From the NCBI RefSeq assembly GCF_007859765.1, contig NZ_SIHJ01000001.1, forward strand, positions 1,381,967-1,445,966: a stretch of DNA of 64,000 nt, written 5' to 3'. The notes beneath the pieces were generated by a model. The model was not told where the DNA came from and ran no database searches. It was given only the letters and a program-made list of their open reading frames with translations. This stretch comes from Posidoniimonas corsicana. Lineage in GTDB: Bacteria > Planctomycetota > Planctomycetia > Pirellulales > Lacipirellulaceae. Made by a program: the position numbers and the translations under genes. How positions within the stretch are numbered: the first letter of the stretch is position 1; every line of letters starts with the position of its first letter. Positions 41,340-45,980 of the stretch are shown one piece after another.

Positions 41340-43046
41340 GTGTCGCGAATCTCCTCTGCCGCCGACTGGCTGCTGAAGCTCCCGATCATCTGGGGCGCCA
41401 TCGCGTGCCTGACGTTCTACGCGATGCTAGCGAGCGTCAACAACCAGGTGCTGAACCAGTACTTCGGCGGCTTCGGCTCGGCTGAGCTGGGCAACCTGAT
41501 CAAGCTGTCGATCACGGTCATGTTCTTCATTGGCTGCACCGCCATGGTGATGCGGCTGATCGGGCTGGCCGGCCAGCTCGGCGTGATGCACCGCCGGCTG
41601 ATCGAGCCCAAGACGCCCGGCGGCCAGCAGGCGCGGGACGCCGACTCGCTCCTCGCCCAGCTGCGGGACCAGCCGTCGTACCTGCAGGGCACGTACATGA
41701 TCCGCCGGCTGCGGCAGTCGCTGGAGCAGGTCCGCCGCAAGGACTCCGCCGAGTCGCTGGAAGAAGACCTCCGCCGGCTCGAGGCGTCCGAGTACGAGCG
41801 GATGGCCAGCGGCTACGCGATGACCAAGATCATCGTGTGGGCGATCCCCATCCTCGGCTTCCTCGGCACCGTCATCGGCATCACGATCGCCATCGGCAAG
41901 CTGTCGCCGGAGGCGCTGGAGAGCTCGCTCGACGCGGTCACCGCCGGCCTGAGCGTGGCGTTTGACACCACCGCCATCGCGCTGGCGCTATCGCTGGTGC
42001 TGACCTTCATGATGTTTTTCGTGAAGAGCCGGGAGGAGGCGCTGTTGACGCAGGTCGACGAACGAGCGATTGAAGAGCTCGTCGGCCGCTTCCAGTTGTA
42101 CGGCGGCGCCAACGACCCCAACGCGGCCGCCGTGCTGAAAATGTGCGAGCAGGTCGTCCGCGCCGTCGAGACCCTCTCCGCGCGACAGATCGACCTGTGG
42201 GCCGAGGCGGTCAGCGAAACCCACAACCAGTGGGCCAACGTCACCGCCGCCACCACCGACACGCTCAAGCAGGCGTTGGTGACCGGGCTCAAGGACGGCC
42301 TCCGCGACCACGCCACCGGGCTGACCGTGGGCGTCGAGAGCCAGCTCAGCGACCTCAACCGCAGCCTCACGACGCAAAACGAGGAATTCGCCGCCGGCAT
42401 CCGCGAGCAGGTAGAGTCGCTCGGCAAGGGCATCGCCGAGCAGACCACTCAGCTCAGCAGCAGCGTGCTGCAGCAGACCGAGCTGATGAGCCAGAGCGTC
42501 GCGCAGCACGCCGAACAGCTCAACCAGGGCGCCGACGGGTTGCTCGGCAACCTCCGCGCCGGGCTGGAGCGGATGGCCGAGCTGCTGGTCGAGGCCCTGG
42601 GGCAGCACGGAGAGGCGCTCACCACCGCCGAGAAGGAGCTGGCCACTGAGAACCGCCGCCACCTGGGCGAGGTCGAGGCCGCCCTCGGCGAGGCGATGGT
42701 GCTGTCGGCCGACCGCCAGGAGAAGCTGATCGGCCGCAGCGAGACCCTGCTCAAAGAGATGCAGGACGCGCTGGTTTCGGCCGCGGGCGCCACCGTGCAG
42801 CACCAGGAGCAGCTCGTCCGCCAGGGCGAGGTCCTGCTGAAGGTCGTCGAGTCAACCGGCCAGGTGCGTCAGCTGGAAGAAGCCCTCAACCAGAACCTGA
42901 ACTCGCTGGGACGCGCCCACAACTTTGAGGAGACGCTGCTCAGCCTCTCGGCGGCCATCCAGCTGCTCAGCGCCCGGGTCAGCTCGACCAGCGGCGCCCG
43001 CAGCGACGTCCCCTCCGTAGGCGGCATCACAGGACAAGCGGCATGA
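41340..43046 (+). CDS. MotA/TolQ/ExbB-like proton-channel protein with long cytoplasmic tail
   Basis: Inner-membrane protein of the MotA/TolQ/ExbB superfamily, whose members form pentamers converting ion flow into movement. TM1 (about 14-34) and TM2 (about 57-80) are followed by a cytoplasmic loop. TM3 (IIVWAIPILGFLGTVIGITIAIG) and TM4 (GLSVAFDTTAIALALSLVLTF) carry the conserved GFLGTVxG and Thr-containing motifs. After TM4 come about 340 residues of helical, Gln/Glu/Leu-rich sequence expected to form a coiled coil, far longer than in TolQ or ExbB and reminiscent of ZorA. The stop overlaps the next gene start by 4 nt (ATGA). Partners are the next two genes. Cellular role unknown. Confidence 0.85.
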   Translation: MSRISSAADWLLKLPIIWGAIACLTFYAMLASVNNQVLNQYFGGFGSAELGNLIKLSITVMFFIGCTAMVMRLIGLAGQLGVMHRRLIEPKTPGGQQARDADSLLAQLRDQPSYLQGTYMIRRLRQSLEQVRRKDSAESLEEDLRRLEASEYERMASGYAMTKIIVWAIPILGFLGTVIGITIAIGKLSPEALESSLDAVTAGLSVAFDTTAIALALSLVLTFMMFFVKSREEALLTQVDERAIEELVGRFQLYGGANDPNAAAVLKMCEQVVRAVETLSARQIDLWAEAVSETHNQWANVTAATTDTLKQALVTGLKDGLRDHATGLTVGVESQLSDLNRSLTTQNEEFAAGIREQVESLGKGIAEQTTQLSSSVLQQTELMSQSVAQHAEQLNQGADGLLGNLRAGLERMAELLVEALGQHGEALTTAEKELATENRRHLGEVEAALGEAMVLSADRQEKLIGRSETLLKEMQDALVSAAGATVQHQEQLVRQGEVLLKVVESTGQVRQLEEALNQNLNSLGRAHNFEETLLSLSAAIQLLSARVSSTSGARSDVPSVGGITGQAA

Positions 43047-44983
43047 GGCGTTCGCCCTCGCGTGACAACTCATCCTCGGTAAGCCTGTTCCCGTTCCTCG
43101 CCGTGCTGCTCTGCACGATGGGGGGTCTGGTGGTGCTGCTGGTGGCGGTCTCGCACGTCTCGCGTGAGATGGCCAAACGCGAGAAGGCCAAGGCCGAGGC
43201 GGCCGCCGCGGTGGCCGCGCCGGACGACGGGGCGCTCGCCCGCCTGGCGGAGCTCAAGGAACGGACCGCCGAATACGCCCGCCGCGAGGCCGAGGCCAAG
43301 GAGTCCGTCCGGCAGGACCAGCTCCGCCTAGCCCAGGTGGAGGAGCACGTCCGAAAGCTGCAGGACGAGATGCGGATGGTCCTGGTGGCCGCGCAGGAAC
43401 TTGAGGCGGACAAGTCGCAACGCTACGACGACCGCGCCCAGGCCGAGCGTGAGCTCGCCCGCCTGGAGCAGCTCGTCGACGACACCAAGCTGGAGATCGA
43501 GCGGCAGCGTCAGAAGACCAAGGGCACGAAGCAATCGTTCGCCGTGGTGCCCTACCGGGGCGCCAGCGGCACGAAGCGGCAACCGATCTACATCGAGTGC
43601 ACCGCGGACCGCGTGCTGCTGCAGCCCGAGGGGATCGAGCTGACCCCCGACGACTTTGCCCCGCCGCTGGGCGTTGGCAACCCGCTCGCGGCGGCGCTGC
43701 GGGCGGCGCGCGACCACATGGTCCGCGAGAACCCGTCCGCCGGCGCCGACCCGGACGCGGAGCCCTACCCGCTGATCCTGGTCCGCCCCGCAGGCATCGG
43801 CGCCTACTACCGGGTGCGCGAGGCGATCCGCTCGTGGGACGCCGAGTTCGGCTACGAGATGATCGACGGCGACTGGGACCTCGCCTTCGCCCCGCCCGAC
43901 CCGCAGCTCGCGAACGTCGAGCTCCGCGCAATCAACAACGCCCGCCTCCGCCGCGAGGTGCTGGCTTCCGCCGCACCGAGCGCGTTCTCCGGCGGCGGCG
44001 GGACGTTCGCGATCCCGGTCGAGGAAGACCCGCTCCCCGGCGAGCACCCCTACGACCCCGCGGTACTGGGGGGCGGGGTCGCGGGCGCGACGGGCATGGG
44101 GAGCGGCGCGGGGACGCACCAGGGCGGACTCGCCGGCGGTTCCCAAGGCTACTCGGAGCAGCCCTACGGATCCGGACCCCATGGGTCCGGTCAGGGCGGC
44201 GGTGGATTGGCCGGGTCCGGGTCTGGGCGGCCCGGACAGCCCAACGGCGGTGGCCAGCCGAGCCAGCCCGGCTTCGATCAACACCAGCAGGCACAAGCGG
44301 ATGCCGGGCAGCAAGGCTCTGGCGGCTGGGCCGCTACGGGATCGCTCAGCCCCGCGCAGGAAGGCTACCCTGACGGCGGCTCAGATGCGCTTAACGGGCC
44401 CGGAGGTCCGAGCGCCGCCCAGACCGCCGCAGGCGGGCCGAGCGGCCAAGCGATGGGGGGCGCCGAGGGGATCGAACAATCCGGATCGCCAACCTCGCCC
44501 GGCGGATCGATGGACGGCACTGTGGCTGGCGCGGCGGGCGGCGGGCAGAACGCGTCGGCCGGCGCCGGCGGAGGGGCAGCGAGCTCGTCGGGCGTCTCGA
44601 TGAGCGTGGGCGGGAGCAACGGGTCGGTCGCGTCGCTCAACGCCAAGCAACGCCCGGACGACGTCGCTATCCGCCGCACGGTAAAGGTTTCGGTGTTCTC
44701 CGACCGCCTGCTCGTTGGGCAGCAGCCAACGCCGCTCGCCATGCCCGGGCCAACCTCGGTGCACATCAACGAGTTCGTTGCCAGCGTAAAGCAGCAGATC
44801 GAGTCGTGGGGGTTGGCGGGCAGCGGGCTGTACTGGCGGCCAATTATCAAGCTCGACGTCCGCCAGGGCGGCGAGCAGCGGGCCGCCGAGATCGAGCGGA
44901 TCCTGACCCGCTCGGGCGTCGACATCGAACCGGTAAAGACCGCCAACCGCACCAACGGAGAACCAGCCAGTGGCGCGCGGTAG
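43043..44983 (+). CDS. single-TM stator partner A with Gly/Ser/Gln-rich linker (no TM aspartate)
   Basis: Inner-membrane protein of 646 residues with an ExbD/TolR/MotB-like layout. A single N-terminal TM (SLFPFLAVLLCTMGGLVVLL, residues 14-33) is followed by a coiled coil to about residue 160, then a compact domain (VVPYRGAS...EFGYEMIDGDWDLAF, about 165-290). A low-complexity Gly/Ser/Gln/Pro linker spans about 325-530, and the C-terminal domain (TVKVSVFSDRLLVGQQ...) covers 545-635. The position matching the proton-carrying Asp of ExbD is Ala 20. It overlaps the channel gene by 4 nt and the next gene by 14 nt. No OmpA-type peptidoglycan-binding motif is seen. Confidence 0.8.
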   Translation: MRRSPSRDNSSSVSLFPFLAVLLCTMGGLVVLLVAVSHVSREMAKREKAKAEAAAAVAAPDDGALARLAELKERTAEYARREAEAKESVRQDQLRLAQVEEHVRKLQDEMRMVLVAAQELEADKSQRYDDRAQAERELARLEQLVDDTKLEIERQRQKTKGTKQSFAVVPYRGASGTKRQPIYIECTADRVLLQPEGIELTPDDFAPPLGVGNPLAAALRAARDHMVRENPSAGADPDAEPYPLILVRPAGIGAYYRVREAIRSWDAEFGYEMIDGDWDLAFAPPDPQLANVELRAINNARLRREVLASAAPSAFSGGGGTFAIPVEEDPLPGEHPYDPAVLGGGVAGATGMGSGAGTHQGGLAGGSQGYSEQPYGSGPHGSGQGGGGLAGSGSGRPGQPNGGGQPSQPGFDQHQQAQADAGQQGSGGWAATGSLSPAQEGYPDGGSDALNGPGGPSAAQTAAGGPSGQAMGGAEGIEQSGSPTSPGGSMDGTVAGAAGGGQNASAGAGGGAASSSGVSMSVGGSNGSVASLNAKQRPDDVAIRRTVKVSVFSDRLLVGQQPTPLAMPGPTSVHINEFVASVKQQIESWGLAGSGLYWRPIIKLDVRQGGEQRAAEIERILTRSGVDIEPVKTANRTNGEPASGAR

Positions 44984-45980
44984 AGACATCGATGACAGTG
45001 AGGTCGCCGGCCAGGACTCGTTCCTGGACGTGGTGGCGAACATCGTCGGCATCCTGATCCTTCTGGTGATGGTGGTCGGCCTGCGCGTGTCGCGAGAGAC
45101 GCACGCGCCCACCGAAACCACGGCGAGCCAGACGCCGGCCGTTACTTCGGAGGAAGTCGCCGCGGCGCAGCAGGAGGCCCAGAAACAATACGTGCTGGCC
45201 GCCAAGGCCGTTGACCGCGCCCGCCAGTCCCGCGCCGAGCTGCAGCAACAAGACGAGGAACGCGTGGCGGTTGCGACGCTCGTCGCAGAGTCCAAAGCAG
45301 AACTCGAGGACACCAAGCTCAAGCTCAGCAGCGACCAGCGTCGGGACCTGGAGCTCCGCACCAAGCTGGTTGCGGCGCAGGATGAACTGGAAGAGCTGGC
45401 CCGCACGCAGGTGACGCTCGCCGCGTTCAAGCCGCAGGTTGAGTCGATCGAGAGCCTGCCCACGCCGCTGGCCCAAACCGTTAGCGGCGACGAGCTGCAC
45501 ATCCGCCTGGCCGACGGCCATGCGGCGGTGATCCCACTCGATCAGCTCCTGGCCGACTTCAAGGAGGACGCCCAGGCGAACCTGTGGCGGCTAGAGTCAC
45601 GGGAACAAGCCAGCGTCAGCATCGGCCCGATCGACGGGTTCCGATTGGTTTACACCCTCCGCAGGGCAAACTTCACCGCGCGATCCGGCGCATCGGGGAC
45701 TTTGATCCGGCTGGAGCGTTGGCGCCTGCTGCCCGACGCCACCGCCCAGGGCGAACCGGTCGAGCAGGCCGTGCTGCCGGACTCGCGTCTGATGCGGTTG
45801 GTCAAGGCGCGGCCGGCCACGACCACCATTACCGTCTGGACCTACCCGGACAGCTTCAACGAATTCCGCACGCTCAAGCGCGCGCTGTACGAGCTGGGGT
45901 ACCCTACCGCGGGCCGCCCGCTCCCCGAGGGGATCCTGATCGGCGGGTCTCCCGAGGGCAGCCAGTCTGCCGCCCAGTAG
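44970..45980 (+). CDS. single-TM stator partner B with candidate proton-site aspartate
   Basis: Inner-membrane protein of 336 residues starting at GTG. Its single TM reads DSFLDVVANIVGILILLVMV (residues 16-35) with Asp 20 at the depth where ExbD, TolR and MotB carry their essential Asp. A coiled coil (about 50-165) leads to a periplasmic domain of about 150 residues with LRRANFTARSGASGTLIRLERW and TITVWTYPDSFNEFRTLKRALYELGY, resembling part of partner A's central domain in layout. It overlaps partner A by 14 nt. Together the three genes form one translationally coupled operon. Role unknown; energy transduction across the envelope is inferred. Confidence 0.8.
   Translation: MARGRDIDDSEVAGQDSFLDVVANIVGILILLVMVVGLRVSRETHAPTETTASQTPAVTSEEVAAAQQEAQKQYVLAAKAVDRARQSRAELQQQDEERVAVATLVAESKAELEDTKLKLSSDQRRDLELRTKLVAAQDELEELARTQVTLAAFKPQVESIESLPTPLAQTVSGDELHIRLADGHAAVIPLDQLLADFKEDAQANLWRLESREQASVSIGPIDGFRLVYTLRRANFTARSGASGTLIRLERWRLLPDATAQGEPVEQAVLPDSRLMRLVKARPATTTITVWTYPDSFNEFRTLKRALYELGYPTAGRPLPEGILIGGSPEGSQSAAQ

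Follow-up and report, generated by a model that had tools for sequence, protein, structure and literature searches.

What kind of machine is built from one stator-type ring protein and two unlike single-pass partners? The question is raised by three consecutive genes, here called A, B and C, of Posidoniimonas corsicana (Planctomycetota; Planctomycetia; Pirellulales). They lie in a 64,000-nucleotide stretch of contig NZ_SIHJ01000001.1 (assembly GCF_007859765.1, positions 1,381,967 to 1,445,966), which we refer to as the window. An original prediction, made from the sequence of the window alone, described a three-gene stator-like operon. Both the gene calls and the conserved gene order bore this out: all three genes are on the + strand, with A and B overlapping by 4 nt and B and C by 14 nt. 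The prediction overlooked the strongest feature of the system, which is the conserved absence from B of an aspartate that is conserved in C.

The transmembrane aspartate is conserved in C and mostly absent from B

B and C each contain one hydrophobic segment, at residues 18-36 in both proteins. The transmembrane (TM) start reads GQDSFLDVVANIVGIL in C and SLFPFLAVLLCTMGGL in B. We take the FLD of C to be the aspartate position of ExbD, TolR and MotB. The four ExbD proteins encoded at two other loci of the same genome (L002 and L006) have TPM, isoleucine or valine, and then aspartate at that position. A profile of C proteins aligns FLDvvaNiVG onto the FLAVLICTVG and FLDVLVCTMG of B proteins and the FLSILACVIG of a paralog of B (B-prime, below), the TM segment being included in the alignment.

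We counted residues in readable loci outside family f102, which is treated separately; these column counts also omit L147-L163 (paralogous or weakly matching loci) and L210-L221 and L224 (second copies of loci counted elsewhere, or A genes standing alone). Loci were not de-duplicated, and B rows are identical at least for L039 and L173, L048 and L175, and L084 and L179. Position 20 of C was aspartate in 145 of 145 loci, and still in 65 of 65 after removal of the 80 loci from a genome scan whose search patterns (DSFLD[VI][VI][AT]N and VGILI[LI]LV[ML]) favour C proteins with aspartate. An acidic TM residue in the partner, a trait of this superfamily, is therefore present in C but not generally in B, where position 20 was non-acidic in 125 of 131 loci (Ala 119, Thr 3, Ser 2, Gly 1) and aspartate in six. 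The closest relatives gave the same picture: among the best 120 of each protein, the TM was readable in 117 C relatives, all with aspartate, and in 116 B relatives, with Ala in 106, Gly in 10 and Asp in none (eight of these 233 were read by eye because the search pattern had not caught them). In a tree of B proteins, five aspartate rows fall among alanine rows; three changes are needed to account for them, of which well-supported branches force only one. Aspartate in B thus looks secondary.

The same lopsidedness was found in a distant paralogous set (A-prime; B-prime, ~270 residues; C-prime, ~375 residues) that is present in several genomes. A-prime proteins fall on a branch of their own, which comprises 13 rows, relatives from other classes among them, and has a Shimodaira-Hasegawa-like approximate likelihood ratio test (SH-aLRT) support of 99. 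B-prime has serine at the aspartate position in all nine loci seen (L147, L149-L153, L160, L219, L220), and C-prime has DSLLDTM with its aspartate in all ten rows with a TM seen, read by eye (L147-L153, L156, L159, L163). Two sets that separated long ago thus share the asymmetry, which speaks for its being functional. At one locus from another class (L162), both weakly matching partners show aspartate.

In genome G238, C-prime (L148) lies ~1.1 Mb away from A-prime and B-prime (L219). L157 and L162, both from other classes, have ring-type genes together with LLDTMCNAFGG or SFLDVFACAIG TM motifs, and loci of this type possibly represent a wider family of large stator partners.

The motif is lost where no A is found

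Family f102 comprises 45 genomes of our class sample, and B and/or C are kept in all of them. The best match to A in these genomes has an E value of 5.6e-25 or weaker, with none in two genomes; matches at this level also occur in genomes without B and C, whereas the other genomes holding B or C have matches of 8.7e-38 or stronger. At the 16 f102 loci examined (L194-L209), no A adjoins the partners and the soluble domains of B and C are still recognisable, but the TM motif, aspartate included, is lost in 15 of 15 B proteins and 16 of 16 C proteins. In the loci examined, the motif that includes C Asp20 thus tracks the presence of A in the genome. Its loss where no A was found supports a role for C Asp20 within the A ring, and the persistence of B and C in these genomes suggests a separate role for their soluble parts.

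Layout of the operon and its flanks

The features of the operon are collected in Table 1. An ATG is present 9 nt upstream of the GTG start of gene A, and gene C occurs once in the genome. A Pfam scan of five neighbouring proteins returned PTPS, Rrf2, peptidase M24, lspA and dksA/traR types. Housekeeping flanks of this kind recur near the operon in relatives, with a queD-like gene in 24 of 80 loci and lspA, dksA and thrC in 16 of 80 each.

Table 1. Genes, protein regions and key residues of the three-gene operon, in window coordinates.
Feature	Position	Strand	Description
Gene A	41340..43046	+	MotA/TolQ/ExbB-family ring protein; GTG start, 568 residues, tail of ~335 residues
A Thr177	41868..41870	+	In GFLGTVIG; predicted pore threonine
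A Gly180	41877..41879	+	Three residues past Thr177; His in a separate A clade
A Thr211	41970..41972	+	Predicted second pore threonine
Gene B	43043..44983	+	Single-TM partner without the aspartate; ATG start, 646 residues
B protein regions			TM 15-37, long helix 63-159, domain 165-315, Gly-rich linker 330-530, C-terminal domain 541-630
B Ala20	43100..43102	+	At the stator-aspartate position
Gene C	44970..45980	+	Single-TM partner with the aspartate; GTG start, 336 residues
C protein regions			TM 14-39, long helix 60-152, domain 165-336
C Asp20	45027..45029	+	Predicted ion-binding aspartate

A tailed ring protein

The description of A as a protein with the TM3-TM4 motif of MotA, TolQ and ExbB and a long tail was confirmed. 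A matches PF01618 (MotA_ExbB) over residues 124-240 with 54.9 bits against a cut-off of 22.9, has four hydrophobic segments (15-33, 53-71, 165-183 and 210-228), carries GFLGTVIG at residues 173-180 and continues for ~335 residues after the last hydrophobic segment. At 119 readable loci outside f102, column 177 was Thr in 118 and Ser in one, and column 211 was Thr in all. Presumably, Thr177 and Thr211 are the equivalents of the threonine ring known from pores of this kind.

In an alignment of 30 A proteins, conservation was 0.78 in the distal tail (401-545) compared with 0.73 in the TM3-4 region and 0.30 in the middle of the tail. A conserved end beyond a variable middle suggests that the distal tail may be a docking site carried on a spacer.

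Column 180 of A, about one helix turn past Thr177, was Gly in 115, His in three and Leu in one of the 119 loci. In a tree of 143 A rows, proteins with His or Tyr at this position lie on one side of a branch with an SH-aLRT support of 100 (12 rows, one of them Tyr; two rows are the same gene). In those at L210, L211 and L213-L218 (Tyr in L218), ~257 residues separate the motif from the C terminus, and neither partner gene was found next to them; genomes G445 and G468 hold such an orphan A alongside an operon copy with the Gly type. Six A relatives (P0185, P0195, P0223, P0229, P0233 and P0237) begin with ~90 additional residues, including several hydrophobic segments, before the usual start.

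Two partner families without a clear Pfam entry

The original prediction gave each of the two different partners a single N-terminal TM, a coiled coil and extra domains. Hydrophobic segments and AlphaFold2 models likewise show one such TM in each protein, together with a long helix and soluble domains. In the models a long helix follows the TM (B 63-159; C 60-118 and 121-152) and leads into alpha/beta domains. The mean predicted local distance difference test score (pLDDT) is 83.5 for C and 68.7 for B, and residues 342-526 of B score below 50; this region falls within a 201-residue Gly-rich segment (330-530) with 63 Gly, 28 Ala and 26 Ser.

At E <= 0.01, Pfam returned no match for any of 30 aligned C proteins or for the B protein of the window. 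Fourteen of 36 aligned B proteins match UPF0242 weakly (best E 1.2e-5), and other matches were single or few and largely to coiled-coil families. PF02472, the ExbD/TolR family, was not matched by B or C in scans of both proteins and their aligned relatives; its eight matches in the P. corsicana genome all lie outside the operon. We found no OmpA domain in B or C at E <= 1, and the three OmpA matches of this genome are all on other contigs. B and C therefore add two partner families without a clear Pfam entry.

Occurrence of the three genes in Planctomycetia

Protein searches at E <= 1e-3, in which only top-ranked candidates were scored and the best 120 of each were listed, gave 1102 relatives for A, 619 for residues 1-325 of B and 1554 for C. 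A scan of genomes from 84,980 species gave 355 loci with a C relative, of which the best 80 were analysed; all 80 are labelled as planctomycetes or subgroups of them, except for one Nealsonbacteria. At phmmer E <= 1e-3, C was found in all 80, B in 79 and A in 67. The order A-B-C on a single strand was kept in all 67 loci holding A. The 13 loci without A end at a contig edge in 12 cases, and the remaining one (L071) has 3.4 kb upstream of B with no A. With hundreds of relatives and a conserved gene order, the three-gene set is not a chance arrangement.

Across 294 genomes of the phylum, C was found in 5 of 5 from Pirellulales, 15 of 16 from elsewhere in the class and, as weak matches, 8 of 273 outside the class. 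A sample of 198 Planctomycetia genomes held B in 161 and C in 160, with C alone in four, B alone in five and neither in 33; these absences are soft, as the searches scored the best few candidates per genome, and at least two genomes tallied as having C without B (G332 and G440) do carry B beside C (L202 and L209). Both partners were thus together in 156 of the 165 genomes with either, as the original prediction had expected, and in 49 of 49 genomes of Pirellulales. That prediction had also named two patterns that would speak against a dedicated three-part system, namely homologues mostly in ordinary TolQ/TolR pairs or partners that never occur together; we looked for both and found neither. 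The three-gene set is stably kept in the class. From this wide distribution and the recurring housekeeping flanks we infer vertical inheritance and a housekeeping or core role rather than mobile defence.

Comparison with known systems

Stators with two partners are already known. AglRQS, the gliding motor of Myxococcus xanthus, has one TolQ-type ring protein and two TolR/ExbD-type partners in one cluster (PMC3169522; this and the papers below are cited from excerpts). Clusters in the Planctomycetes-Verrucomicrobia-Chlamydiae (PVC) group are described with a tolQ-like gene, two different partners, a tetratricopeptide repeat (TPR) gene and a von Willebrand factor A (vWA) transducer (PMC12204202). 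In P. corsicana itself, L002 (C1:1286077) and L006 (C1:732080) have an ExbB-type gene and two ExbD-type genes, with aspartate in both ExbD proteins. The claim that known stators use a single type of B subunit is therefore wrong, and we rejected two B subunits as a novelty in itself. A conserved partner without the aspartate is a different and stronger oddity; we found no description of one in our searches of the open-access literature, most subscription papers being outside that coverage.

The operon resembles AglRQS, as excerpted, in having a ring protein and two unequal partners in one cluster. For AglQ and AglS alike, the conserved aspartate is predicted to be present (PMC9389320). They also match PF02472, whereas B and C do not and are larger, with B lacking the aspartate, and here A has a long tail. 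The PVC-group clusters, from the same superphylum, share the tolQ-like gene and two partners, and L002 and L006 look similar to them; however, we saw no TPR or vWA genes among the five neighbours scanned here. With TolQR, ExbBD and MotAB the operon shares a PF01618 ring protein, threonines in its last two helices and, in C, an aspartate at the TM start. It differs from them in its tailed ring protein and its two partners, one without aspartate, in neither of which a PF02472 or OmpA domain was found. For GldLM, a critical glutamate is reported in the ring protein, GldL (PMC8986121).

A likeness to ZorA had also been proposed for A. ZorAB is a 5:2 complex in which ZorA has an elongated cytoplasmic C-terminal tail and the single-TM ZorB carries an aspartate and peptidoglycan-binding domains, and Zorya systems include effector genes (PMC11890865). 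The operon is similar in its tailed ring protein and single-TM partner, but B and C have no ZorB or OmpA match. Against the NCBIfam models for ZorA, A scored 16.0 bits where the cut-off is 700 and 15.2 where it is 500, below both. ZorC, ZorD and ZorE were absent among the five flanking proteins scanned with Pfam, the part of the genome searched for them. What stands of the proposal is a generic resemblance at 15-16 bits; cut-offs of 500-700, the lack of ZorB and the distribution of a core trait speak against more. We rejected membership in Zorya on the sub-threshold ZorA scores, the missing ZorB match and neighbours that are not effectors.

Proposed mechanism and its alternatives

We propose that the three proteins form a rotary motor driven by ions, like MotAB, ExbBD and TolQR, with a ring of five A, an axle of one B and one C, and a predicted ion site in C only; we consider this about as probable as its opposite. 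The ring would be a pentamer of A that encloses one B helix and one C helix as a two-helix axle. By homology, ion flow past C Asp20 and A Thr177 and Thr211 would turn the ring around the B-C pair. The soluble domains of both partners would be on the periplasmic side, and the long conserved tail of A may transmit the movement to a cytoplasmic partner encoded elsewhere, or receive a signal from it. With no acidic site in B, the ring would be expected to take a single 72-degree step per ion instead of two 36-degree steps. One model for 5:2 motors has one proton per 36-degree step, and broken symmetry between the partners could give 72-degree or limping steps (PMC9389320). A more specific and more novel reading is a natural one-stroke 5:1:1 motor that would step by 72 degrees, with one ion for each step, with an obligate B-C heterodimer as axle and C Asp20 as sole ion site, in which B has been kept non-acidic over most of the class and in a second, anciently split set. 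We give this reading somewhat under an even chance.

The main rival, which we consider unlikely, is an arrangement like TolQRA in which a C homodimer would occupy the A pentamer and B would pack against its outer side to transduce force, as TolA and TonB do. Such a role is consistent with the absence of the aspartate from B and with its long disordered linker and terminal globular domain, which would suit a transducer that reaches the outer membrane; TolA and TonB are reported to bind the side of the motor (PMC12204202). However, the TM of B aligns with that of C and is conserved over its full length (0.81), and six B loci have aspartate at the very same position. TolA- and TonB-type helices are reported with a conserved histidine (PMC12204202), but the TM of B has no such residue; His38, at its end, is histidine in 12 of 36 rows of the B alignment. 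Further evidence against an outside position comes from residue 180 of A, since none of the 115 loci that combine a Gly180-type A with a readable B has an acidic residue at position 20 of B. In the five B-Asp loci for which the A of the genome was read, A was of the His180 type, at the same locus in L076, L180 and L223 and elsewhere in the genome for G375 and G383 (L210 and L211); in the sixth, L071, the A type was not read. A prediction drawn from L223 and L076, that genomes with only a His-type A would have aspartate in B, failed in five of five new genomes, all with alanine (L225-L229); the B TM of one further such genome (L233) was not readable. The His type was read directly for G425, G462 and G409 (L213, L216 and L217) and taken from the strength of the genome-wide match alone for G453 and G459. 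The converse, that a Gly-type A goes with alanine in B, held in three named genomes (L230-L232). The association between aspartate in B and His180 in A is thus one-way and involves few independent changes, but it would still fit a residue 20 of B that faces A in the pore.

It is more doubtful still that one ring serves two alternative motors, a driven A5C2 and an ion-dead A5B2 that serves as brake or plug. In its favour, the two partners are encoded separately and differ in their soluble parts, and for AglRQS it is stated that channels could be formed by AglRQ as well as by AglRS, homo- and heterodimers being unresolved; heterodimer formation by AglQ and AglS is given as not known in the excerpt (PMC9389320). 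However, the overlapping genes favour joint assembly, and the persistence of B and C together in f102, where no A is found, points to a B-C partnership. A Zorya-like anti-phage system, in which an envelope sensor would signal through the tail of the ring, seems very improbable: A does resemble ZorA profiles over residues 153-395 (E 2.7e-11) and has a long tail, but neither partner matches ZorB, the five neighbours, which were scanned with Pfam and not run against PADLOC, are of the types listed above, and presence in every Pirellulales genome sampled is unlike a scattered defence system. Least probable of all is an ordinary TolQR/ExbBD pair beside an unrelated gene. The membership of A in the MotA/TolQ/ExbB family would allow it, but none of the PF02472 matches of the genome lies in the operon, and both partners are conserved alongside A across families; we rejected an ordinary ExbD/TolR pair because neither B nor C matches PF02472.

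Implications

If the one-stroke motor is correct, its unequal, gene-encoded axle halves would make questions of step size testable without tandem fusions, as each half could be mutated alone. Family f102 provides a natural experiment in which what B and C do through their soluble parts is separated from what they do in the motor. The three genes would then encode a widely kept machine in a bacterial class with unusual cell biology.
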